From assembly GCA_005116955.1 (NCBI GenBank), contig SWDI01000001.1, positions 1 through 64,000 of the forward strand: DNA of 64,000 nucleotides, read 5' to 3'. Origin of the DNA: Nitrospira sp. GTDB taxonomy: Bacteria > Nitrospirota > Nitrospiria > Nitrospirales > Nitrospiraceae. The translations under genes and the position numbers were made by a program. This document shows, piece after piece, positions 1,701 to 14,874 of the stretch. The notes under the pieces are model-generated. The model saw nothing but the letters and a program-made list of their open reading frames with translations. It ran no database searches and was not told the DNA's origin. Every line of letters begins with the position of its first letter. Position 1 is the first letter of the stretch.

Positions 1701-3254
1701 GTGAATAAGTCTGACACCGGTCTAAGTACATCGACAGCGAGCCCAGCTGCAACCCCAGGGACCTCTCTCATCCTTCTCACTGGGGCCAGCGGATACATTG
1801 GTGGACGCCTCCTGCCGTCGTTGGAGAATCAGGGTTACCGCTTGCGCTGTGTAGCCAGACATCCAGAGATTCTTAAGCAAAAGGTCAGTCCATCAACGGA
1901 AGTTGTGGCGGGTGACGTCCTTGATCGAGCGAGTCTCGACAACGCGTTCCGAGGGGTCGACGTGGCCTACTACATGGTCCACTCCATGCGTTCGACCGGC
2001 TCGTTTGAGGAGACGGACCGGCAGGCGGCGCGGAACTTTAGCGAAGCAGCAAAGGCAGCTGGCGTGAAGGGACTGGTCTATGTGGGAGGCTTGGGCAGCG
2101 ACGAAGAGGAACTCTCGGCACATTTGCGCAGTCGGCACGAGGTCGGTGACATCTTGAGGCAGTCGGGCCTGCCGGTCTGTGAGTTTCGCGCATCCGCTGT
2201 GATTGGTTCCGGTAGTGCCTCCTTTGAGCTGGTTCGCGAGCTGGTCGAACGCTTGCCGATCATGCTCACTCCGAAGTGGGTCAAGGGGAAGGCGCAGCCG
2301 ATCGCAATCGACGACTTACTGGATTACCTAATGGAAGCGCTTCGGATTCCAACCTGCAGTTACCGTATCTACGAAGTCGGCGGAAAAGACAAAGTCTCCT
2401 ACGCGGATATGATGCGGGCATACGGGCGGCAACGCGGGCTTAAGCCTCTGATCATCCCAGTGCCGGTCCTCACCCCCTGGCTGTCTGCTCTGTGGTTGGG
2501 GTTGATCACACCGCTCTACGCTCGCATCGGCCGAGCGATTATCGAGAGCATCGTCCATGTCACGGTGGTACGAGACAATGCTGCGCTGACAACCTTCTCA
2601 GTCCGTCCGATGGGAATCGATGAAGCGATCCGCCGAGCCCTTGTCCGTGAAGAGCGACACTTCTCCGAAACGCGCTGGTCCGATGCCCTCTCTTCATCCG
2701 GCAGGCTGCCGGCGTGGGGTGGAGTGCGGTTCGGCACGCGCATCGTCGATTCACGGACGTGGACGGTCGAAGCGCCGCCAGACGTGGTCTTCAACTGCAT
2801 TGAGAGGATCGGTGGTGACCATGGCTGGTATGCGTGTGACTGGCTGTGGCGCCTGCGTGGCTCCATCGACCTGCTTCAAGGGGGTGTCGGTATGAGACGT
2901 AGACGGCCATTATCCACGACCCTGCGCGTCGGCGACACGGTCGACTCATTTCGCGTTGAGGCTATTGAGCGGAATCGCCTCCTGCGGCTCAAGTCCGAGA
3001 TGAATTTGCCCGGGCGGGCGTGGCTCGAGTTTGAGGTAAAAGAGGCCGGCTCCTCAACACAGATACGGCAGACGGCAATCTTTGATCCTGTGGGACTGAA
3101 AGGCCAACTGTACTGGTATTCCCTCTACGTGCCGCACGAGTTTGTATTCAATGGGATGTTGGGAGGAATCGCGCAAGCAGCATTGAGAGAAATGAGGGAC
3201 CTCGATATGCCGAAAATACCGAATGGGCAGACGGCGACGCAGCACCGCCGCTGA
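1701..3254 (+). CDS. SDR-family NAD(P)-binding protein with C-terminal DUF2867-like (SRPBCC) domain
   Basis: A 517-residue, apparently cytosolic protein. Residues 25-300 form an atypical short-chain dehydrogenase/NAD-dependent epimerase domain with the dinucleotide motif GASGYIGG and a typical second-strand DVLDRASL segment; the extended-SDR YxxxK is not obvious, as in NmrA-like members. Residues 345-500 look like the DUF2867/SRPBCC module found fused to such domains (TRIVDSRTWTVEAPPD, DHGWYACDWLW). The start is GTG at 1701, with GAGAGG shortly upstream. It sits between two SUMF1-fold genes on the same strand and may be cotranscribed with them. The substrate is unknown. Confidence 0.8.
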   Translation: MNKSDTGLSTSTASPAATPGTSLILLTGASGYIGGRLLPSLENQGYRLRCVARHPEILKQKVSPSTEVVAGDVLDRASLDNAFRGVDVAYYMVHSMRSTGSFEETDRQAARNFSEAAKAAGVKGLVYVGGLGSDEEELSAHLRSRHEVGDILRQSGLPVCEFRASAVIGSGSASFELVRELVERLPIMLTPKWVKGKAQPIAIDDLLDYLMEALRIPTCSYRIYEVGGKDKVSYADMMRAYGRQRGLKPLIIPVPVLTPWLSALWLGLITPLYARIGRAIIESIVHVTVVRDNAALTTFSVRPMGIDEAIRRALVREERHFSETRWSDALSSSGRLPAWGGVRFGTRIVDSRTWTVEAPPDVVFNCIERIGGDHGWYACDWLWRLRGSIDLLQGGVGMRRRRPLSTTLRVGDTVDSFRVEAIERNRLLRLKSEMNLPGRAWLEFEVKEAGSSTQIRQTAIFDPVGLKGQLYWYSLYVPHEFVFNGMLGGIAQAALREMRDLDMPKIPNGQTATQHRR

Positions 3255-3320
3255 ACCTGGCGTACCGAGAAAGACGAGACTGCTTCCAATGGGGAAACCA
3301 AGTGCTAAGGGACATCTGCA

Positions 3321-4388
3321 ATGCATACAGCAAGAATCATTGTGATCGCAGCGTTAGCAACCGCATTCACAACAGTGAACCCGGCAGTCCGTGCTGAGGA
3401 ATCCTTGATCCCGAAGGACATGGTGTACATCGGCCAAGAACCTTCGATCATGGGACTCGACAAGGAAGACGTTATGGAACAGGCTAACACCCCTGCGAGA
3501 AATCGCATACCGAGGTATCCCCTACGCAACAGAACGCCTGCTCGCACATTGAATGACGAAAGCCCGGCCCATATGGTGTTCCTCGATTCGTACCTTATCG
3601 ATAGATATGAAGTTGCCAACAAGGACTATGGAGATTTCATGAGGACGAACGGACACGGAGCGCCTGCCTATTGGGATGATCCCCGCCTCAATCGCCCGAA
3701 CCAGCCAGTGGTCGGCGTCAGCTGGTATGACGCGCGTGCCTATTGCGAGCATCGTGGCAAGAGGCTGCCGACGGAAGCGGAGTGGGAAAAGGCCGCCCGA
3801 GGGCCAAATGGCAATCTCTATCCCTGGGGCAACGACTTTGATCCGGCGAAAGCTAACTATGGAAGAACTCATGATGCCACAAGCCCGGTCGATTCATATC
3901 CCGATGGGGTCAGCTACTACGGCCTCCATCACATGGCCGGCAATGCGTTTGAATGGGTCTTGGACTGGTACGACCCACGCTACTACAGCCAGCTGGAACC
4001 CATGGTCAATCCCACTGGACCTGAAAAACCCGTATGGATAGGTGGCACCGGGACCTATGTGGATCTGCTGACACTCGGAGAAAAACGAGTGATTCGAGGC
4101 GGATCCTGGGTCGCACCAGAAGGGTCGGTTAGGACAACCCACCGATTCTGGAATCACCCTCTGAACAACAGCTACGGCGTGGGGCTGGGGTTCCGCTGCG
4201 CGAAGACTGCCCCACCAGAAATCGATCAGCGAATCAAAGACGCCACCATCTTGACCTACGTCGAAATGGGACGAGAGCGCTTTGCGGAGGCCCAGCAGAC
4301 CCTTGCTCCAGGACTGGCCCTTGACCCAAAGAATAGGGAGCTCCTGGACCTTCGACAATTGATCGAACAATCGCTGAAGCGACCGTGA
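3321..4388 (+). CDS. Exported SUMF1-fold protein with TPR-like tail
   Basis: A 355-residue paralogue of the protein at 695 with a signal peptide (cleavage near AVRAEE). Compared with that paralogue it has an extra 40-residue polar insert before the core (around residues 45-75) and another around residues 235-250. Core motifs are RLPTEAEWEKAARG, HMAGNAFEWVLDWYD, VIRGGSWVAP and GLGFRCAK. The positions of the FGE catalytic cysteines are again non-Cys (GGSWVAPEGSVRTTHR). The C-terminal 65 residues resemble a degenerate TPR pair. It follows the SDR gene by 66 bases on the same strand. Predicted periplasmic; function unknown. Confidence 0.85.
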   Translation: MHTARIIVIAALATAFTTVNPAVRAEESLIPKDMVYIGQEPSIMGLDKEDVMEQANTPARNRIPRYPLRNRTPARTLNDESPAHMVFLDSYLIDRYEVANKDYGDFMRTNGHGAPAYWDDPRLNRPNQPVVGVSWYDARAYCEHRGKRLPTEAEWEKAARGPNGNLYPWGNDFDPAKANYGRTHDATSPVDSYPDGVSYYGLHHMAGNAFEWVLDWYDPRYYSQLEPMVNPTGPEKPVWIGGTGTYVDLLTLGEKRVIRGGSWVAPEGSVRTTHRFWNHPLNNSYGVGLGFRCAKTAPPEIDQRIKDATILTYVEMGRERFAEAQQTLAPGLALDPKNRELLDLRQLIEQSLKRP

Positions 4389-4440
4389 AGGAAGATTTCA
4401 CGAGATTTGTACATGATGTGATCATGACGGAGGCGCACCA

Positions 4441-4818
4441 ATGATACTCAGCAAGATTCTTTATCGAGGGATTATCCTCATCGCCCTACTCGGAGCCTCA
4501 TCCATCCAGGCTGGTCCCATCGATTCACCCGGACACGCCCGTCAGGATAAGGCCAAGCTGGTCCAGCTGGTCCATAAAGCCAATCATGAAGTGGACCACG
4601 CATGGGAGGTCTACCACCGGGCCGCGTTGGGAGGAACAGTGGCCTCACCTGCACTGCAGGCGGAAATCGAGCAGCACCTGCACGAAGCCAGAACCCTCGT
4701 GACCCAGGCACAAGAAGCAGCTGACCGAGGAGACAAGCGCCAGGTTGAAGCGCTCATCAAGCAAGTAAGACTCCATACCGCCCAAGCCATAAAGGGTAGC
4801 AAGGAGCAGAAGAAATGA
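4441..4818 (+). CDS. Small secreted helical His-containing protein
   Basis: A 125-residue protein with an N-terminal signal peptide (to about residue 24, SIQAG). The mature part is predicted to be almost entirely helical and has regularly placed histidines (LVHKANHEVDHAWEVYH, EQHLHEA, RLHTAQ). The last third resembles the small metal-binding SmbP-type helical bundle of nitrifiers, but the match is weak and is my inference. Its stop overlaps the start of the next SUMF1-fold gene by four bases (ATGA), which implies translational coupling. The ATG is preceded by GGAGG a few bases upstream. Confidence 0.7.
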   Translation: MILSKILYRGIILIALLGASSIQAGPIDSPGHARQDKAKLVQLVHKANHEVDHAWEVYHRAALGGTVASPALQAEIEQHLHEARTLVTQAQEAADRGDKRQVEALIKQVRLHTAQAIKGSKEQKK

Positions 4819-5660
4819 TCACTGGTCTGTGGCAGAGATCAACTCAGCTCAAGAGAATCACGGTGGCAGTTGTCACAGCTCTGGCGCTGATGCCATTGCT
4901 CACCCAGGAAGCATTCGCGGGAGCGAAGGAGATTGACCCGGTGCCGATGGTCACGATTCCGGCCGGAGAATTTCTGATGGGCAATCCAGAAGGAAAAGGC
5001 CGGGAAGATGAGCGACCTCAGCGATCTGTCTACCTGGACGAGTTTGCGATCGATCAAGTCGAAGTGACGAATGAACGGTATATGGCCTTTGTGAAATCCA
5101 TTGGCCATCGCACACCACCCAATCCCTATGGCACCGGGCCCCTCCAATCTATTAAGGGCATTGAGCAACTACCGGTGGTCCAGACAACCTGGTACGACGC
5201 CAAGGCCTATTGTAGTTGGGCGAAGAAACGGCTGCCGACGGAAGCAGAATGGGAGAAGGCTGCTCGCGGGACCGACGGCCGCCTCTACCCCTGGGGGAAT
5301 GACCCACCCACGGCGAAGCGGGCAAATATTGATCGAGAGTGGGAGGACGAGCGTACCCTGCACGCGGTCGGATCCCTTCCAGATGGAGATTCGCCCTACG
5401 GGGTGAAGGATATGGCCGGGAACGTCAGGGAGTGGGTCTCCGATTGGTACGACGCGGACTACTATCAACATGCGCCTAATCGGAATCCACAAGGTCCCGA
5501 CAAAAAGGGAGTGGTTCGGTCGATTCGTGGCGGGTCCTGGCATAGTCCCGCGTCCGATATCACCACATCGGCGCGTGGCCGTGGCGGGTTCGCCTTGCAG
5601 ACTCATGGCACCGGCTTTCGCTGTGTCCGTGGTCTCCAGGAAGCGATCCAGAAGAAGTAA
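4815..5660 (+). CDS. Exported SUMF1-fold protein (third paralogue)
   Basis: A 281-residue protein with a signal peptide (to about residue 36, EAFAGA) and a compact SUMF1/FGE-sulfatase domain: GEFLMGNPEGKG, RLPTEAEWEKAARG, DMAGNVREWVSDWYD, SIRGGSW and GTGFRCVRG. The region equivalent to the FGE active site (GGSWHSPASDITTSAR) has no cysteine. Unlike the paralogues at 695 and 3321 it has no TPR-like tail. It overlaps the stop of the small His-containing protein by four bases, so the two are translationally coupled. Likely periplasmic; catalytic function unknown. Confidence 0.85.
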   Translation: MITGLWQRSTQLKRITVAVVTALALMPLLTQEAFAGAKEIDPVPMVTIPAGEFLMGNPEGKGREDERPQRSVYLDEFAIDQVEVTNERYMAFVKSIGHRTPPNPYGTGPLQSIKGIEQLPVVQTTWYDAKAYCSWAKKRLPTEAEWEKAARGTDGRLYPWGNDPPTAKRANIDREWEDERTLHAVGSLPDGDSPYGVKDMAGNVREWVSDWYDADYYQHAPNRNPQGPDKKGVVRSIRGGSWHSPASDITTSARGRGGFALQTHGTGFRCVRGLQEAIQKK

Positions 5661-5774
5661 CCGGTTGTAGTGACCCTGCGAGATAAGACGATGGCAACGA
5701 CAAGAGTTGTGAGGCCGGTTTATTGGTTTTGTAGAGGTGACGCCGAAACTCCGCACGGCGACACCCGCTGAGGC

Positions 5775-5807
5775 AGGCAGGTCCCCTCGTGATCGAGGGG
5801 CCTGTCT
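5775..5807 (+). terminator. Strong hairpin downstream of the SUMF1 group
   Basis: Arms 5775-5789 and 5794-5807 pair almost perfectly (CCCCTCG against CGAGGGG plus an outer AGGCAGG/CCTGTCT part with one bulge), with loop TGAT. There is no T-run after it, so it may be a factor-assisted terminator or an mRNA-end stabiliser. A consensus TATAAT follows at 5821-5826 and could start the next transcription unit. Confidence 0.45.
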
Positions 5808-5873
5808 CCTTGGTGAACTGTATAATCACGTACGGGCAGGTGGCTTCTACAAGTTTTGAGAAGGAGGACGGTT

Positions 5874-5999
5874 ATGGATATGAGCATTGTCTTGTTGGTC
5901 GCGATGGGATTCCTGACTTTCACGATGGTCGCTGGACTCTTTCAGGCTGTCACCGCTGTTGTTAGGAGACGGACCAACAGAAAACCGACTCGAAGGTAA
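5874..5999 (+). CDS. 41-residue single-span membrane peptide
   Basis: The ATG at 5874 follows AAGGAGGA at 5861-5868. The product has one hydrophobic helix (MSIVLLVAMGFLTFTMVAGL) and a strongly basic tail (VVRRRTNRKPTRR), the pattern of a small inner-membrane protein with a cytoplasmic C-terminus. It lies 63 bases ahead of the TIGR01777 epimerase gene on the same strand. Function unknown; confidence rests on the ribosome-binding site and the membrane-like composition. Confidence 0.5.
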   Translation: MDMSIVLLVAMGFLTFTMVAGLFQAVTAVVRRRTNRKPTRR

Positions 6000-6062
6000 G
6001 ACGCTGTCGACTTGCCAGGCGTATCAGCCGGCCTGTCGATGGCTCTTTCAGGAGCTATGTCT

Positions 6063-7001
6063 ATGAACATCGTAGTAGCTGGAGGAACAGGGTTCATTGG
6101 TCAAGCGCTGTGCCCAGCGCTCTGCCACGGTGGCCACAGAGTCAGTCTACTGACAAGACATGCAGGGCAGGTTCTTCACCGGCCCGACGCACATATGAAC
6201 GTAGTGGAATGGAATGCACGAGAGACGGGCCCCTGGGAGGAGCTGCTTGAGGGAGCCGATGCAGTCATTAACCTCGCTGGCGCGCCGATCGCCGACGGAC
6301 GCTGGACCGATGAGCGCAAGCGACTCCTTACCGAAAGCCGAGTCCTCACGACCCGCTTACTCGTCAGCGCGCTATCCCGCCGGTCATCGAAACCCCCGGT
6401 GTTGATCAGCGCCTCTGGCATCGGCTATTACGGCGCCAGCGATGACCGCCTATTGGATGAAGGCGCGGCTCGCGGCACCGGATTTCTCGCTGACCTTTGT
6501 CTGGCCTGGGAGGCGGAAGCGATGAACGCCGCAGAGTTTGGAACCCGCGTGGTCATCTTGCGGACCGGCATGGTGCTCGAACAAGACGGCGGGGCTTTAG
6601 CAAAAATGGTGTTGCCATTCAAGTTGTACGCAGGCGGTCCGATCATGCCGGGTACTCAGTGGGTCTCCTGGATTCATCGACGTGATCATATCGGCCTCAT
6701 CCAATGGGCCCTCGCCAACAGCCATGTTTCTGGCCCCCTCAACGCGGTGGCCCCGGAAGCGGTCACCATGAACGAGTTCTGTTTGAAACTTGGCCGCGCA
6801 CTGCATAGACCATCCTGGATTCCGGCGCCAGAATTCCTCTTGAAACTGGCCTTGGGAGAATTGGGATCGCTGATGACCACGGGCCAGCGCGTGGTGCCAA
6901 AGAAGGCCATTGAGAAGGGGTATGTGTTTCAGCATGCAACGCTGGACTCTGCGCTTCAGGCCCTATTTTCTGAAACGACCGTGGTCGGTCGCGTAGCGTG
7001 A
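6063..7001 (+). CDS. TIGR01777-family (YfcH-like) epimerase/SDR protein
   Basis: A 312-residue cytosolic protein. Nucleotide-binding motif VVAGGTGFIGQALCPAL at the N-terminus; VINLAGAPIADGRWT, the catalytic-type segment SASGIGYYG, and WVSWIHRRDHIGLI are hallmarks of the TIGR01777 branch of NAD-dependent epimerase-like proteins; GPLNAVAPEAVT and a final DUF1731-like segment (MTTGQRVVPKKAIEKGY) complete the usual architecture. I chose the ATG at 6063 because GGAG at 6051-6054 has good spacing; an ATG two codons earlier is also possible. The in vivo substrate of this family is not established. Confidence 0.85.
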   Translation: MNIVVAGGTGFIGQALCPALCHGGHRVSLLTRHAGQVLHRPDAHMNVVEWNARETGPWEELLEGADAVINLAGAPIADGRWTDERKRLLTESRVLTTRLLVSALSRRSSKPPVLISASGIGYYGASDDRLLDEGAARGTGFLADLCLAWEAEAMNAAEFGTRVVILRTGMVLEQDGGALAKMVLPFKLYAGGPIMPGTQWVSWIHRRDHIGLIQWALANSHVSGPLNAVAPEAVTMNEFCLKLGRALHRPSWIPAPEFLLKLALGELGSLMTTGQRVVPKKAIEKGYVFQHATLDSALQALFSETTVVGRVA

Positions 7002-7020
7002 ACGTAGGAAGGTACGACAT

Positions 7021-7119
7021 ATGGACACGATTCTGATGTATCTGGTCCTCTTAGGAGTAGTGATTATGGCTGGGAACATGTTGCTGATCTCATTGGTTCG
7101 TGTTGCCGCGCTTCCCTAA
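7021..7119 (+). CDS. 32-residue membrane peptide
   Basis: ATG at 7021 after GGAAGG, 19 bases past the epimerase stop. Almost the whole product is one hydrophobic helix (LMYLVLLGVVIMAGNMLLIS). No recognisable family. Resembles the 41-residue peptide at 5874 in size and topology but not in sequence. Confidence 0.4.
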   Translation: MDTILMYLVLLGVVIMAGNMLLISLVRVAALP

Positions 7120-7308
7120 CACCGTGGCGCAATAGGAGGAGTGATCGGGAGAAGAAGCAGATGGAACAGGTGGGCATTGCTTCTGCTTTTCACACGGGAC
7201 CGTCATCGAGTGCATCAATGCTCCGTTTACAGGAATTCATTCGTGCTGCGCTTGAGACGATGTCTCCTTGAATTGGCAGATCCTGGTAGCCCATGAGGAG
7301 GTGGGCCC

Positions 7309-7410
7309 ATGAGAATTCACAACAACTATATTCATGTTGCGGCAGGATTGTTGGCAGGCGTACTCGCAGTTGCGGCACTGTCTTTATTTGGTTTGATACG
7401 TGTTCGGTGA
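7309..7410 (+). CDS. 33-residue membrane peptide related to the neighbouring signal peptide
   Basis: ATG at 7309 with GAGGAGGTG immediately upstream (7296-7303). The product begins MRIHNNYIHVAAGLLAGVLA, closely resembling the first 15-20 residues of the PDZ protein that starts 30 bases after its stop (MRITGFHIVAGLLMGLLVV), and the DNA is similar too, so one probably arose by partial duplication of the other. It ends IRVR after a single hydrophobic helix. Another candidate frame at 7161-7271 (36 codons) has only a weak ribosome-binding site; otherwise 7120-7308 holds nothing I can support. Confidence 0.45.
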   Translation: MRIHNNYIHVAAGLLAGVLAVAALSLFGLIRVR

Positions 7411-7440
7411 GCAAGAGCGTACTTAACAGGAGGTGCTTTT

Positions 7441-7890
7441 ATGCGAATCACTGGCTTCCATATTGTGGCAGGGTTGTTGATGGGCCTTCTCGTTGTGGGA
7501 TCGGCTACAGCCGACCAAGGACCGAACCAGGCGCCGTATGGGCATGGAAACGATACCAAGCTGCCCAAGGGTGTGATCGGTCTCTCTCTCCAGATCGGAG
7601 CCGAGCGGATCGGTGATCCGGCCATCCTGTATGTCGGCATGGTCCATCCGGAGGGACCAGCTCATAAGGCGGGACTCGGACATGGCGATGAGGTCGTGAG
7701 TGTTGATGGAACACCCGTGAACGGAAAGCGTTATGAGGAAGTGGTCGGCATGATTCGAGGAGAAACAGGAACCGCCGTGAAGGTTGGAGTCAAGGGTGAA
7801 AACGGCCTCCGTGAGCTGTCCATCACACGAGTGGCAGGTGACAAGCTTTCAAGAGGCCCATCAGGATCACATGGCAACCCAGCGCCTTAG
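7441..7890 (+). CDS. Secreted single-PDZ-domain protein
   Basis: A 149-residue protein with a signal peptide (to about residue 24, SATADQ), hence periplasmic. Residues 45-130 form one PDZ domain: the carboxylate-binding-loop-like GVIGLSLQ, then HPEGPAHKAGLGHGDEVVSVDGTPV and EEVVGMIRGETGTAVKVGVK. No protease domain is attached, so it is more likely an adaptor than an HtrA/Tsp-type protease. The start has GGAGG at about 7430. It lies 23 bases before the photolyase gene on the same strand. Confidence 0.8.
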   Translation: MRITGFHIVAGLLMGLLVVGSATADQGPNQAPYGHGNDTKLPKGVIGLSLQIGAERIGDPAILYVGMVHPEGPAHKAGLGHGDEVVSVDGTPVNGKRYEEVVGMIRGETGTAVKVGVKGENGLRELSITRVAGDKLSRGPSGSHGNPAP

Positions 7891-7913
7891 CACTTCGGAG
7901 AAGGGGGCATCCT

Positions 7914-9359
7914 GTGCGAGGAATGGTTTGGTTCAGGCGCGATCTTCGATTGCACGACCAGCCGGCTCTTACCGCGGCCTGTGCGGAATGCGACGAGATC
8001 ATTCCGCTGTTTATATTCGATGAGCCGTTGCTGCACTCGCATGAGTTTGGATCAGCCTGTGTGACCTTCATGCTGGGATGCTTGGATAAGCTCCAAGCAT
8101 CCCTCGCCGCCCTCGGACTCACTCTGCAGTGGCGTCGCGGTGAGCCAGTTGAACAAATTGTTCAAACGGCAATTGATTGGAAGGCCGACGTAGTCTATTG
8201 GAATCGTGACTACGAGCCGGGCGCGATAGAGCGAGACCGCCTGGCTCAACAGCGTTTGGCAAAGCTCGGGGTGGCGGTGCGGACGTTCAAAGACCATGTG
8301 GTGTTTGAAGCATCTGAGGTTCGGGGCGCGACGGGTGAGCCATTGCAACGGTACAGCGCCTATCGCGCACGCTGGTGGACCAAATGGCATGCAACAACCC
8401 CAGCAGTTCAACCGATCCCAACTACCCTTGCAAAAAAGAAAGCCGCACCGCTGCCACTCTCTCGTCCTCTTCCCACCGCCGGTGAGCTGGGGTACGAATC
8501 CATCGTCTTGGCGTTTGAGCCTGGCGAGCAGAACGCCCTGAAGCGATTGCGCTGGTTCATGAAAGGACCGCTTCATTCCTATGCGCAAGGTAGAAACCTG
8601 CCGGCAATCGATGGCAGTTCAACACTTTCCCCGCACTTCCGGTTCGGCACACTGTCGCCGCGCGTGGCCATTCACGCAGCGTTGAATGCACTGACTAAAG
8701 GCGGACCAGTATCCCGGGCTGATGTCCTGACCTGGGTCGATGAGTTGACCTGGCGTGAGTTCTTTCAGCAAGTGTTGGCTTCGTTTCCACACGTTGCAGT
8801 GGGACCATTCCGGAAGGTGGCAGTCCCGCCAGCTCGACCAGCTGGGAGTGAACGAGATCAGCTGTTTCGAACATGGTGTGAGGGGAAAACCGGTTATCCG
8901 ATCGTGGATGCAGGCATGAGGCAACTCAACCACACGGGATGGATGCATAATCGTGTTCGGATGGTCGTGGCATCCTTTCTGATCAAAGATCTACGAATCG
9001 ACTGGCAGAGCGGCGAACAGTATTTCATGCAGCATCTGATCGATGCTGACGTGGCCGCAAACAACGGCAATTGGCAATGGTGCGCTGCAACCGGCACGGA
9101 TGCCATGCGGGGTTATCGCATTTTCAATCCTGCGCTCCAAAGTAAAAAGTTCGACCCGGACGGAACCTACATTCGTCGCTATGTCCCAGAACTTGCTCTT
9201 GTATCGGCGAAGAGGATTCATGAGCCGCATCTCATGACCGCAGATGAGCAAGAACGCGCTGGATGCCGGATTGGGACCGATTATCCTTCACCGATTGTGG
9301 ACCATCAATTCGCCCGTCAGGAATATCTCAACCTCGGGAAGCAGGAGGCAACGAGATGA
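7914..9359 (+). CDS. phrB: Deoxyribodipyrimidine photo-lyase
   Basis: A 481-residue class I photolyase/cryptochrome-family flavoprotein that uses light to split cyclobutane pyrimidine dimers. The N-terminal antenna (Rossmann) domain begins MVWFRRDLRLHDQPAL; the FAD domain contains STLSPHFRFGTLSPR, the WREFFQQVL segment, TGYPIVDAGMRQLNHTGWMHNR and DVAANNGNWQW, all typical of functional enzymes. Length is normal. The start is GTG at 7914 with GAGAAGGGGG before it; the antenna domain starts right after. Its stop overlaps the next gene by four bases (ATGA), consistent with a DNA-repair operon. Confidence 0.95.
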   Translation: MRGMVWFRRDLRLHDQPALTAACAECDEIIPLFIFDEPLLHSHEFGSACVTFMLGCLDKLQASLAALGLTLQWRRGEPVEQIVQTAIDWKADVVYWNRDYEPGAIERDRLAQQRLAKLGVAVRTFKDHVVFEASEVRGATGEPLQRYSAYRARWWTKWHATTPAVQPIPTTLAKKKAAPLPLSRPLPTAGELGYESIVLAFEPGEQNALKRLRWFMKGPLHSYAQGRNLPAIDGSSTLSPHFRFGTLSPRVAIHAALNALTKGGPVSRADVLTWVDELTWREFFQQVLASFPHVAVGPFRKVAVPPARPAGSERDQLFRTWCEGKTGYPIVDAGMRQLNHTGWMHNRVRMVVASFLIKDLRIDWQSGEQYFMQHLIDADVAANNGNWQWCAATGTDAMRGYRIFNPALQSKKFDPDGTYIRRYVPELALVSAKRIHEPHLMTADEQERAGCRIGTDYPSPIVDHQFARQEYLNLGKQEATR

Positions 9360-10309
9360 CGATCTCCCCGCTTCGCCTTGGCATCAGTCGGTGTCTTCTC
9401 GGAGATAAGGTTCGCTTCGACGGAGGACACAAGCAGGACCATTTCCTAACCGATGTCTTGGGCCGATACGTCGAATGGGTCCCGGTCTGCCCTGAGGAGG
9501 AAGCGGGATTGGGCACCCCGCGTGAAGCGATGCGCTTGGTGGGCAATCCGGATCGCCCCCGGCTGATGACAATTACGAGCAAGCACGATCACACCCAGGC
9601 GATGGAGGCACTGATCGACGCGCGTCTTGATTCACTCCACAAACAAGACCTCTCAGGATTTGTCTTCAAGAGAGGCTCACCCAGTTGCGGAGTAGAACGG
9701 GTGCGTGTGTACACCGCACAGGGGACGCCAAGTCAGAGCGGAGTCGGGATCTTTGCGAAAGCCTTCACAGCGCAGTTTCCATTGATTCCCGTCGAGGAAG
9801 AAGGGCGGCTCTGTGACCCTTCCCTTCGGGAGAACTTCATTGAGCGGGTGTTCTGCTACCGCCGGTTCCAAGATCTGGTGCAGAACGGAGTCACAAAACA
9901 GGCTCTGATACGCTTCCACACGATTCACAAATATCTGCTCTTAGCCCATAGCCAGCAGCACTACGAAAGGATGGGTCGGCTGGTCGGCCAAACGAAACGG
10001 TATGGACTCAAAGAATTGACATTGAAGTACGGTGAGCACTTCATGAAAGCCCTGACCATGAAGGCGACGGTGCGGAAACATGTCAATGTGCTGCAGCATA
10101 TTGTGGGCTACTTCAAGAGTCGATTGACCACTCAAGAAAAGACCGAGCTGTTGGGCGTGATTGCCGACTATCATGGGGGGCTTACGCCGTTGATTGTCCC
10201 TCTCACGCTGTTCAAGCATTACGTCCAGATCTTCGACGTCGGGTACATTCGCGATCAGGTCTATCTGAACCCACATCCGAAAGAGCTCATGTTGCGGAAT
10301 CATGCGTAG
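9356..10309 (+). CDS. DUF523 and DUF1722 domain protein (YbgA-like)
   Basis: A 317-residue protein. The N-terminal DUF523 domain (residues 5-150) has LGISRCLLGDKVRFDGGHK, VPVCPEEEAGLGTPREAM and FKRGSPSCGVERVRVY, with conserved cysteines that may bind a metal or a cofactor. The C-terminal DUF1722 domain (about 185-305) has HTIHKYLLLAHS and KHVNVLQHIVGYFK. I set the start at 9356, overlapping the photolyase stop as ATGA, because GCAGGAGG precedes it and the conserved domain begins there. In many bacteria this two-domain protein neighbours photolyase genes, as here; a link to light-damage repair is suggested by context only. Confidence 0.9.
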   Translation: MTISPLRLGISRCLLGDKVRFDGGHKQDHFLTDVLGRYVEWVPVCPEEEAGLGTPREAMRLVGNPDRPRLMTITSKHDHTQAMEALIDARLDSLHKQDLSGFVFKRGSPSCGVERVRVYTAQGTPSQSGVGIFAKAFTAQFPLIPVEEEGRLCDPSLRENFIERVFCYRRFQDLVQNGVTKQALIRFHTIHKYLLLAHSQQHYERMGRLVGQTKRYGLKELTLKYGEHFMKALTMKATVRKHVNVLQHIVGYFKSRLTTQEKTELLGVIADYHGGLTPLIVPLTLFKHYVQIFDVGYIRDQVYLNPHPKELMLRNHA

Positions 10310-10321
10310 AAGGGAATCGCA

Positions 10322-10744
10322 ATGCCACATGTTGTTGTAGAAGAAGCCGGAGCTTTGCAGGGCCTCTATCAGGCATTCACGCCGATGGTTCAACGAACCG
10401 GCAACGAGATACTCAAGGTTCAAGAATTCTATTTGTCGCGGAGCGGAAAAGACGCACTGCTGGAGCCCGTGGCGATCGAGCAGGGTGCGGCATGCACGTT
10501 CTTTGTCCAGCTCAAGTTGCACGAGAAAGCCATCACCGTCCGTCTGCTGCCGGCTACAGATCCTGAAAAAACCCCTGCAGTCAAGAAGCTCATGGCTCTC
10601 GTCGCGGGATTCATTCGGAAAGTGTATCCAGGGAGTCGCTATGGAAAGACCAATCTTCAAGAATACTTAGTGCCAATGGCGCACCCCTCAATCGCGGATT
10701 CCAGATCTTTCTCACCGGCTACCCGGAAGCGCGCAAGACGCTGA
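10322..10744 (+). CDS. Conserved hypothetical protein, C-terminus replaced at a deletion scar
   Basis: A 140-residue protein with no signal peptide. Residues 1 to about 117 (through RYGKTNLQEYLVPMA) look like a normal compact domain, with start MPHVVVEEAGALQ preceded by AGGGAA. From about base 10675 the DNA encodes, in another frame, the amine-oxidase-type flavoprotein that follows, so the last ~22 residues (SRSFSPATRKRARR) are an out-of-frame read-through of that gene. The original C-terminus is therefore probably lost or nearly complete at the junction. I do not recognise the domain. Same strand and spacing (12 bases) suggest cotranscription with the DUF1722 gene. Confidence 0.6.
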   Translation: MPHVVVEEAGALQGLYQAFTPMVQRTGNEILKVQEFYLSRSGKDALLEPVAIEQGAACTFFVQLKLHEKAITVRLLPATDPEKTPAVKKLMALVAGFIRKVYPGSRYGKTNLQEYLVPMAHPSIADSRSFSPATRKRARR

Positions 10745-11787
10745 ACTATGCCACGTTGGATCTCATGCCTTTTCATCCTGGAGCGCTCATTCGCTATGCC
10801 AGTCGCTTTCACTTGATGAGCGATCTCTTTCGCCGACCGCAAGATCTGGTGCGGACTTTGGTCAGCCCTATCGGCTCGCTCGCCGACAAGGTGCGAATGT
10901 TGCGTGTGCGACGGGACGCATTGCACCAGCGCCTCTGCTCTGAGATGAGCGACCCCGCCCGGCCGACTCACGAAGTCTTGCAGGCGTATCAATTTTCGGA
11001 CGCCATGGTGACGCATTTCTTCCAGCCCTTTCTCAGCGGCGTATTTTTGGAGACCGGGTTGATAACGCCCGGCTGGATTTTCGAGCTTGTCTGGGGCGCC
11101 TTCTGCCGAGGAGCAACCGCCCTGCCTCGAGATGGCATGGGCGCCATCGCACAACAACTTGCGGCTCCATTGCCTCCGGGGACGATCCGCCTCAACCAAG
11201 CCGTACAGCACATTCAGGGATCGAGTGTGAGGTTGGAGTCCGGAGAACAGCTCACGAGTGACGCGTTAGTGGTCGCGACAGATCATGCGACCGCTGCCCG
11301 CTTGCGTGGGGAGCAAGGGGCACGCCCCTCAGCGCGTAGTTCGATGACGCTCTATTTTGGTGCGCCAGCTGCTCCGCAACGAGGGCCCTGGTTGATATTG
11401 AACGGAGAAGGCAATGGGTTAGTCCGGACCGTCTGTGTGCTGAGTGAAGCAGCGCCTTCATACGCACCGACAGGACGTGCCTTGATCTCGGTGACTACAA
11501 CAGAACAGATTGGGGCACACGATGACTTTGTGCAAGCGGTGCGGCTGTTTCTCCAATCCTGGTTCGGCCCACAAGTCGACGGGTGGCGTCATCTGCGGAC
11601 CGATCACATTCACTGCACGCTGCCCCCAATAGACCTGCTGTCGCCCGGGAACCGCACAGCCTCACCGCGCGTGGCTGCGGGTCTTTACCTTTGTGGCGAT
11701 TACCGGGAGAGCGGTACGCTGGATGGTGCGCTGTTGTCCGGACGGAAAGCAGCTGAAGCAGTACTGTCTGATTACGACCTGTCGTGA
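10681..11787 (+). pseudogene. FAD-dependent amine-oxidase-like protein lacking its FAD-binding N-terminus
   Basis: The frame reads NRGFQIFLTGYPEARKTL from about 10690 and continues through LDLMPFHPGALIRYASRFH to a C-terminal GLYLCGDYRESGTLDGALL near the 11787 stop. This is the body and C-terminal FAD-binding end of an NAD(P)/FAD-dependent amine-oxidase/protoporphyrinogen-oxidase-like enzyme. The N-terminal Rossmann segment with GxGxxG and GGR that should precede it by some 50 residues is missing; upstream sequence belongs to another gene. The first start codon in frame is a TTG at 10756, which would yield 343 residues with no dinucleotide fold. I infer a broken gene. A 343-residue product could still be made, but is unlikely to bind FAD normally. 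Confidence 0.75.
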
Positions 11788-11928
11788 CTCCGACTGCCGA
11801 TGTTAGCCAGAGTCGCTCTATCCGTCGCCAGGCAATCCGCCTCGTACAGGTAGGATTTCATCTCGCGAACGCACGGATCACATGCTCATCATGAAAGGTT
11901 GAAAGCTGCAAGCCCTGTCACGAGACTT

Positions 11929-12354
11929 TCAAAGCCCACAAGCAACCTTCATGAGTACTGCAGTGGACGTCCCTGAGATGGAGGTTGTCAGTTTGCCTAT
12001 AGCTCCAGTAGTGCGCCCTACTGCTCCGGAACCCATGTGGTCGGCATACCATGTCGTTTTCACTGGCTGGCTCTTTTGATTCTGACAGTCGTATTCTCGC
12101 ACGGTGATTTTTGAGAGCGCCGAGATGTCACCCTCCGTCTGTGCCGTCTTATAATCGAACAGATCAGACATGGTGACGGTTTCGTCCGCTTTCCGAATGC
12201 TCCCACGGTCAGCGTAGTAGACGTATATATCCGTCTCGCCAACTTTTGACCAATCAGCTACAGAGATCGTCGTCGGACCTGATGACGGCTCCCCTCCTGT
12301 ACAGGCCGTCATCCACACACAACTCAGCACCAGCAACATACATCGTCGCGGCAT
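11929..12354 (-). CDS. Lipoprotein with surface-adhesin-E-like domain
   Basis: A 141-residue protein with a lipoprotein signal (LSCVWMTACTGG; lipobox Cys near residue 18). The mature part has the pattern of the surface-adhesin protein E family: ADWSKVGETDIYVYYADRGSIRK near the start, a VREYDCQNQ element and a final MKVACG with a second Cys. Most likely anchored to a membrane and facing the periplasm or surface. It follows the similar gene at 12377 by 22 bases, and the two are probably tandem duplicates; this one lacks the typical W-x-x-V-x-PGS element before the last Cys. Confidence 0.65.
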   Translation of the reverse strand: MPRRCMLLVLSCVWMTACTGGEPSSGPTTISVADWSKVGETDIYVYYADRGSIRKADETVTMSDLFDYKTAQTEGDISALSKITVREYDCQNQKSQPVKTTWYADHMGSGAVGRTTGAIGKLTTSISGTSTAVLMKVACGL

Positions 12355-12376
12355 ATCACCCCCTGCTATCCATGAC

Positions 12377-12802
12377 TCAACCTCGATGGGCCTGCCGACA
12401 AGCCACCTTCATTTCAGCATCATCATCGCTACCGGGAACCACGCGGGACCACTCGCGCGTCGCTGGCGCAGCATACAACACGAGGCCTTGCGCCATGCCA
12501 TCTGGATAGTACCGAGTGCGGAGCGGCCGGCTTTCCCTCTGACTGCAGTCGTACTGACGCTTGATCGTCAGTGACCGATAGGGACCCTGCGGAATGGCTC
12601 GCTCGACACGAAAGTCCCGGAGTGTCCAGAGCGTGACCCTCTGCCCCGACACCCCAATGGTGGTCATATCCACATAGCGGTCGTATTTATGGGTCCCTCC
12701 AACTCTTGCCCACTCAGCCGCTGCCAAGTTGGCACGCAGCGTGTCCTGCAGAAAGAGCCCCACACAAATAATAAACATGATACTGAACCGATGCATCCAC
12801 AT
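12377..12802 (-). CDS. Exported surface-adhesin-E-like protein
   Basis: A 141-residue protein with an N-terminal signal peptide (about 28 residues). The mature domain carries AEWARVGGTHKYDRYVDMTTI, VTLWTLRDF, IKRQYDCSQRESRPLR, YAAPATREWSRVVPGS and MKVAC, the ordered pattern of the surface-adhesin protein E family with two cysteines probably forming a disulfide. It precedes the lipoprotein paralogue at 11929 in the same direction and follows the glutathione peroxidase gene by 26 bases, so all three may share the promoter at 13494-13522. Confidence 0.7.
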   Translation of the reverse strand: MWMHRFSIMFIICVGLFLQDTLRANLAAAEWARVGGTHKYDRYVDMTTIGVSGQRVTLWTLRDFRVERAIPQGPYRSLTIKRQYDCSQRESRPLRTRYYPDGMAQGLVLYAAPATREWSRVVPGSDDDAEMKVACRQAHRG

Positions 12803-12828
12803 TCCTCGTTCCTTATTGACATGCGGTT

Positions 12829-13449
12829 TCAGCTTTTCGCCAAGGCCTTTTCCACATCGGACAGAATGGTGGGCGATAAAGGGTTCATGCCGGGATCATA
12901 CTTCCCGATCACGTTGCCGGAGCGATCCACCAGATATTTCTGGAAATTCCACGTCACGCGGCCAGGGAATGGACTCCGCTCAGTTAAATATTGATAAAGT
13001 GGATGCTTCTCTTTCCCAACCACGCTGATTTTGGAGAACAGGGGGAAGCTGATGCTGTATTTTGTGTAGCAGAATCCTTTAATTTCTTGATTCGTACCCG
13101 GCTCCTGCTGCCCAAAATCATTGGCTGGAAACGCCAGGACCTCGAACCCCCGCTCCTGATACCGCTCATACATCTCCTGAAGGCCAGCATACTGAGGAGT
13201 ATTGCCGCACATGCTCGCGGTATTCACAATTAACAGAACTTTACCCTTGTACGTCTTGAGATCGACGGGATGACCATCGATGTCTGGGAGACGAAACCCA
13301 TAGAAAGGTGCCATCGAGATCTCAGCATGCGACGGCATATTGAATTGTTTCTCCCTTGCATTAATGTCTGACTCCGTGATCGCAAAGAGTCCCAGTCCGA
13401 AAAAGACGAGACTGGATAAACCTAAGATAGTTTTTGAATAGATCGCCAT
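12829..13449 (-). CDS. Glutathione peroxidase family protein (cysteine type), membrane-anchored or exported
   Basis: A 206-residue thiol peroxidase. An N-terminal hydrophobic stretch (TILGLSSLVFFGLGLFAI) places it in the periplasm or attached to the inner membrane. The peroxidatic Cys lies in NTASMCGNTPQYAGLQ, followed by LAFPANDFGQQEPG (the conserved Gln and Asn region) and VTWNFQKYLVDRSG (the conserved Trp and Asn). It is the cysteine, not selenocysteine, form; such bacterial members often use thioredoxin as reductant. The frame is open upstream, but the ATG at 13449 has GGGAGGAGG before it and a matching promoter, so I chose it. Confidence 0.9.
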   Translation of the reverse strand: MAIYSKTILGLSSLVFFGLGLFAITESDINAREKQFNMPSHAEISMAPFYGFRLPDIDGHPVDLKTYKGKVLLIVNTASMCGNTPQYAGLQEMYERYQERGFEVLAFPANDFGQQEPGTNQEIKGFCYTKYSISFPLFSKISVVGKEKHPLYQYLTERSPFPGRVTWNFQKYLVDRSGNVIGKYDPGMNPLSPTILSDVEKALAKS

Positions 13450-13493
13450 GTCGAGTGCCTCCTCCCTTGGTCTAACCATCAAGACTATTATTG

Positions 13494-13522
13494 ATAATAC
13501 TATGTCGTCATATGTTTGTCCA
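13494..13522 (-). promoter_or_regulatory. Promoter for the glutathione peroxidase gene
   Basis: On the minus strand TGGACA (13522-13517) and TATTAT (13499-13494) are 17 bases apart, about 45 bases ahead of the peroxidase start. It lies in an A+T-rich stretch and is nearly back-to-back with a plus-strand promoter candidate at 13531-13559. Confidence 0.5.
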
Positions 13523-13530
13523 TATATAGC

Positions 13531-13559
13531 TTGACTAACATTGGACGTTATGGTAAAGT
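13531..13559 (+). promoter_or_regulatory. Promoter candidate ahead of the truncated amoC
   Basis: TTGACT (13531-13536), a 17-base spacer and TAAAGT (13554-13559) form a plausible sigma70-type promoter reading toward the amoC fragment. The implied leader is about 215 bases, long enough to hold the small frame at 13584 or a regulatory RNA structure. Prediction only. Confidence 0.4.
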
Positions 13560-13583
13560 TGTCATGAACTTGATATCGGCCTC

Positions 13584-13709
13584 GTGAAAAAGAGAGACCC
13601 ATGTCGCCAAGTAATCTCCAGGCCGCGCGTCGTATCATCGGGGGGGCTACTTGCGTTTCTCATGATCCTCTTGCATGGCATCGGCCTGCGCATGGCAAGG
13701 TGGCAATAG
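13584..13709 (+). CDS. Possible 41-residue leader peptide with hydrophobic segment
   Basis: A GTG-started frame (MKKRDPCRQV...) with a hydrophobic stretch (SGGLLAFLMILLHGIGL) and a stop at 13707-13709. It begins about 25 bases after the predicted promoter, but I see no clear ribosome-binding site, so translation is doubtful. Apart from this and the two promoters, the 334 bases between the peroxidase and amoC genes show nothing definite. Confidence 0.2.
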   Translation: MKKRDPCRQVISRPRVVSSGGLLAFLMILLHGIGLRMARWQ

Positions 13710-14260: not shown

Positions 14261-14287
14261 TCGATCGTGTGAGTGGTATCAGGATGC

Positions 14288-14319: not shown

Positions 14320-14340
14320 GAACTCTCTCTAGGAGGATTC

Positions 14341-14874
14341 ATGAAGACGGAAACACGAGGCGTCATTTTGGTGGGTCATGGTGGCATTCCCAAGGGATGC
14401 CCACAAGAACTCATCACGAAACTGAAACGGCTGGAAGGTCAACGCCGGGCGGCGAAGCTTCCTCCTTCGGCGGAAGAGCTTGAGCTGGATGCTAAGGTCC
14501 GCCAGTGGCCCAGAACGGCGGAAACGGACCCCTACCAAGCAGGTCTCGAACAAATCGCAGCACGGCTTCGAGCGCAACTCAATGGCGATCTCTTTGCCGT
14601 GGCCTACAATGAGTTCTGTGCTCCAACATTGGAGGAATCAGTCGAGTCATTGATCAAGCAAGGGGCAACTCACATTACCGTGACGACGACCATGTTCACG
14701 CCAGGCGGGTCACATTCGGAAGTCGAGATTCCTGAAATCCTCGATCAGTTGCGGCCACAGTATCCCGAGGTCGAACTGCGTTACGCCTGGCCATTTGATC
14801 TCGACTCAGTCGCCAACACGTTAGCTGAACAGGTCCGGAGGTTTTCCGAAGCAGTTCCAATCGGAAAGGCGTGA
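14341..14874 (+). CDS. CbiX/SirB-like chelatase-domain protein
   Basis: A 177-residue cytosolic protein. The start VILVGHGGIPKGCP has the His of the sirohydrochlorin cobalto-/ferrochelatase (CbiX) fold, and the second half ITVTTTMFTPGGSHSEVEIP has the second metal-binding His and Glu. Between them is an insert of about 40 charged residues (LPPSAEELELDAKVRQWP), longer than in minimal CbiX. Single-domain CbiX proteins insert cobalt or iron into sirohydrochlorin; with the insert, the real substrate is uncertain. The ATG at 14341 has AGGAGGATTC upstream and is preferred over upstream in-frame starts that lie in the terminator hairpin. Confidence 0.8.
   Translation: MKTETRGVILVGHGGIPKGCPQELITKLKRLEGQRRAAKLPPSAEELELDAKVRQWPRTAETDPYQAGLEQIAARLRAQLNGDLFAVAYNEFCAPTLEESVESLIKQGATHITVTTTMFTPGGSHSEVEIPEILDQLRPQYPEVELRYAWPFDLDSVANTLAEQVRRFSEAVPIGKA

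Follow-up and report, generated by a model that had tools for sequence, protein, structure and literature searches.

The N-terminal segment of amine-oxidase-type flavoenzymes holds the FAD-binding beta-alpha-beta unit. Genes for amine oxidases occur in runs with photolyase, CFA synthase, DUF1365 and DUF1295 genes, and such runs are light-responsive in some bacteria. Parts of a study of Vibrio cholerae describe that blue light induces photolyase-family operons and the CFA synthase gene (PMC5241685). Our literature search found nothing joining Nitrospira, photolyase and amine oxidase, nor anything on the gene or the deletion described here. The locus lies in a 64,000-nucleotide stretch of Nitrospira sp. 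DNA, which is called the window. It shares with these runs the photolyase gene and the DUF1722 gene upstream, but has none of the block that in G042 separates the hypothetical gene from the flavoprotein gene. Our reading, to which we give a probability of about 0.85, is that a simple deletion of ~240 bp beheaded the flavoprotein gene and gave the preceding gene a new tail, and that the remnant is a recent pseudogene. The features of the locus are as follows.

7914 to 9359, forward strand: DNA photolyase gene (phrB), first of the run (Pfam)
9353 to 10309, forward strand: DUF523-type (2-thiour_desulf) plus DUF1722 gene, the upstream neighbour (Pfam)
10322 to 10744, forward strand: hypothetical gene, 140 aa (ORF list, Pfam and NCBIfam scans, comparison with the related locus L061)
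10681 to 10686, no strand: deletion junction, 6 bp where L061 has 243 bp; the filler may reach 10690
10687 to 11787, forward strand: remnant of an amine-oxidase-like flavoprotein gene, codons 54-419 plus stop, a headless frame without internal stop
10756 to 10767, forward strand: candidate in-frame start codons of the remnant (TTG 10756, ATG 10765), from which translation may begin

Proposed deletion junction

The window was compared with genome collections holding one genome per species, and 116 genomes were searched: the source genome, members of its genus and more distant genomes within the same order. By their records, five of the six named relatives are Nitrospira MAGs and the sixth belongs to Nitrospiraceae. 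The left flank (window 4908-10680) aligns with L061 1-5769 at 92.0% DNA identity, the right flank (10687-13624) aligns with L061 6013-8954 at 94.5%, and the gene order of L061 is identical to that of the window. Both flanks match L061, L062, G019, G063 and G013 in one common order; therefore, the match is not due to chance. Compared with L061, the hypothetical gene in the window is short of its final three codons and stop codon, the spacer is absent, and the flavoprotein gene is without its start codon and residues 1-53, which include the GxGxxG and GGR segments of the FAD-binding domain. All of this would have been removed by a simple deletion of ~240 bp that left 6 bp in its place; the net loss is 237-242 bp when L061, G019 and G063 are taken as references. 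The distance from the EY of the hypothetical gene to the (D/N)RGFQ of the flavoprotein measures 23 bp in the window, compared with 260 bp in L061, 265 bp in both G019 and G063, 289 bp in L062 and 376 bp in G013, counting only loci with both anchors on one strand and leaving out the value of -4604 for L064. In L062, the N-terminal flavoprotein DNA was read by eye, and the tail of 365 codons is open. A 33-base junction pattern, allowing up to three mismatches, was found in one of 79 genus genomes, the source genome, and was absent from the other 78. The headless form is peculiar to the source genome among the genomes compared, one per species.

A sequence-only reading of this DNA had proposed a deletion of intergenic DNA and about 50 N-terminal codons, to be checked against syntenic Nitrospira loci. 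The comparison bore this out: in relatives with the same gene order, the spacer is intact and the flavoprotein has 419 residues, whereas the spacer and 53 N-terminal codons are missing from the window. The junction that was placed at about 10670-10680 is confirmed, but it lies a few bases to the right, at 10681-10686. It was also said to fuse the two genes, which holds for the DNA but not for the frames; these are not the same, and the stop codon of the upstream gene is at 10742-10744.

One right-flank base, at 10690, differs from the relatives, and the filler possibly extends to this base. Neither GCACCC nor GCACCCC occurs on either strand of L061 4901-7200; a single reverse-strand GCACCC lies in L032 1001-3300, and GCACCCC is found at the flavoprotein start codon in G013. 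We considered two deletions that left a start-codon scrap as filler, but a lone match of seven bases in a single, more distant relative is insufficient to settle this. We also considered whether the gene became headless through the loss of an 8-kb block in the lineage of the window. This was rejected because the anchors are 260-289 bp apart in L061, L062, G019 and G063 and 376 bp apart in G013; among the loci measured, only G042 has a block of ~8 kb between the two genes.

Hypothetical gene upstream of the junction

The 140-aa ORF at 10322-10744 (forward strand) ends in ...SRSFSPATRKRARR. Its residues 1-120 align to the form in L061, which has 123 aa and the C-terminus VPTAGPE, and its residues 121-140 are an out-of-frame tail encoded by flavoprotein DNA. 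Thus, the earlier observation that this gene runs into the flavoprotein DNA in another frame was correct. Pfam and NCBIfam scans gave zero matches at E<=1; the gene is present in 27 of the 116 genomes, the source genome counted (E<=1e-6). In 10 of 11 relatives, the protein ends before the start of the window's out-of-frame tail or 1-4 residues past it, and the exception, L037 (G042), has a longer tail. These 11 relatives were drawn from 22 loci, L032-L053; motif extraction gave 12, from which L053 was dropped as a wrong protein, and L043-L052 were left out. With its conserved part intact, the upstream gene is probably still functional. The 140-residue ORF should not be annotated at its full length.

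Flavoprotein remnant and its full-length relatives

The flavoprotein frame can be recognised from 10690, as first noticed in the DNA, and reads NRGFQIFLTGYPEARKTL from there. Residues 54-419 are retained, with N in place of D55, and the 365 remaining codons are all open, with neither a stop nor a frameshift. The longest listed ORF in this frame runs from 10756 to 11787 (forward strand) and encodes 343 aa from TTG; its frame differs from that of the hypothetical ORF. Pfam Amino_oxidase (PF01593), the flavin-containing amine oxidoreductase family, matches the window frame well above the cut-off (98.6 bits against 19.8) but only at profile positions 37-443, without the N-terminal 36 positions; NAD_binding_8 (PF13450) gave no match to the frame in the Pfam scan. 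The GxGxxG dinucleotide-binding segment and the GGR motif were not found in the flavoprotein frame upstream of 10687. The best NCBIfam match of the headless frame is hydroxysqualene dehydroxylase HpnE (TIGR03467), an identity that we did not assign, as 29.8 bits is far below the cut-off of 283.05. No second close copy of the flavoprotein was found in the source genome.

The flavoprotein is present in 41 of 116 genomes at E<=1e-20, that is, in the source genome and in 40 of the 115 others. The full-length protein has 419 aa in L004, L002 and L061, and the D of DRGFQ is residue 55. In L004, the Amino_oxidase match starts at profile position 1 (159.1 bits) and residues 10-73 match NAD_binding_8, in line with the claim that the window frame lacks the N-terminal GxGxxG/GGR part. 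The first ~64 residues of L004 are the part best matched by solved flavoenzymes (residues 7-73 by phytoene desaturase 5mog, 7-61 by renalase 4zcc and 5-64 by LSD1). N-termini were printed for 29 of the 40 other carriers. In all 29 loci, DRGFQ is preceded by a G-A-(G/E)-x-A-G-L segment, and G-x-G-x-x-G is seen in 28 of them, L024 having GAEPAG. For G001, G092, G094, G096, G101, G112 and G114, only the open-frame lengths were read (417-439), and G061, G016, G089 and G104 were partly read. It had been held that related genomes with the same 343-residue form and a conserved start would speak against a deletion; such a form was seen in 0 of the 29 relatives with a printed N-terminus.

Because the GxGxxG beta-alpha-beta segment and the GGR motif are gone, the remnant would be unable to bind FAD as its relatives do, which points to a recent pseudogene. 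The gene is disrupted, and relatives have intact orthologues. Most likely, judged from these comparisons, it is a recently broken gene, a case of ordinary bacterial gene decay. It resembles the general kind of bacterial pseudogene that arises through a small deletion: relatives are intact, both start codon and cofactor site have been lost, and it has no special feature beyond this. An enzyme function should not be assigned to the 343-residue ORF. The locus would be a further example of the erosion of an accessory gene that adjoins the Nitrospira photolyase, carried by 41 of 116 genomes and beheaded here.

Selection on the remnant and alternative explanations

We wrote a branch-model likelihood for the selection analysis. 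In a two-ratio codon model of 365 codons from the window and nine relatives, omega on the window branch was 0.305, compared with 0.241 on the background (difference not significant, p 0.589), and omega = 1 on the window branch was rejected (p 0.0066). A smaller sequence set gave 0.258 and 0.229, respectively. Taken as single branches, L061, L002, L003, L004 and L006 had omega values of 0.12 to 0.41, none differing from the background; the tree around the window has weak support (59 and 68%). A long-dead gene would show neither a frame free of stops and frameshifts nor a rejection of omega = 1, which speaks against a pseudogene, and the deletion account therefore requires a recent loss. From the 365 open codons and a branch dN/dS at background, it follows that the loss was recent or, less likely, that the remnant is still constrained. 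The dN/dS values thus fit a loss late on the branch, and they fit equally well an intact gene hidden by an assembly error or a remnant still in use.

The deletion is read from one assembled genome, and the organism might have an intact spacer and gene from which the assembly dropped ~240 bp. This is unlikely, although there is a single assembly of one strain and an intact gene would also show a branch dN/dS at background: the contig is 879,579 bp long within an 8-contig genome, the 6-bp filler is absent around the L061 locus on either strand, and no repeat was seen by eye at the break points, which is unusual for a collapsed repeat. We give considerably less weight to a headless protein whose translation would restart at ATG 10765 or TTG 10756, just behind the stop of the hypothetical gene, and which selection would retain for an FAD-independent role such as substrate binding. 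These start codons are in frame, 11 and 20 bases downstream of the hypothetical-gene stop for TTG and ATG, respectively, the 365 codons are open, and the window-branch omega (0.305 against 0.241, the neutral value being rejected) agrees with retention. However, a recent loss gives the same selection signal, no designed headless form occurs among the other relatives read, and the missing part is the cofactor-binding segment. No Shine-Dalgarno-like AGGAG was seen in the bases read at this site. A programmed -1 frameshift yielding a hypothetical-flavoprotein fusion could be imagined because both frames overlap from the junction to 10744, but we rejected it as extremely improbable, since no slippery heptamer of the form XXXYYYZ lies between 10661 and 10744 and the product would still be without the FAD-binding segment.

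Apparently broken copies in relatives and the surrounding DNA

At least two same-genus relatives apparently have a frame-broken flavoprotein, with the breaks at other places than in the window: in G061 (L067) the protein is split over two frames, and in G016 (L069) the N-terminal part is encoded in a different frame, which has a stop. The flavoprotein match contains one stop in G089 and two in G104. Sequencing errors in the four assemblies may lie behind these broken frames.

In L070 (G042), positions 2532-9686 between the hypothetical and flavoprotein genes hold CMAS, DUF2878, DUF1295, lipocalin, a second amine oxidase, DUF1365 and a second CMAS gene. The DUF1365 and second CMAS genes had no match at E<=1e-10 in the source genome, G019, G039 or G063 (89% complete); in G013, they are on another contig.

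G039, G013 and G042 have, directly behind the DUF1722 gene or the hypothetical gene, a short fragment that resembles the 5' portion of the gene at 14269 in the window (window 14328-14489), and in G061 the match to this gene continues for ~2.3 kb at this place. The coordinates of the 14269-gene-like DNA are L002 1190-1309, L038 1924-2040, L070 2304-2440 and L068 1929-4187. These fragments suggest rearrangement around the locus. Downstream of the remnant, the adjacent ORFs at 11929-12354 and 12377-12802 (reverse strand) have 141 aa each, an N-terminal signal-like stretch and, by eye, a similar layout, and are possibly a duplicated pair.
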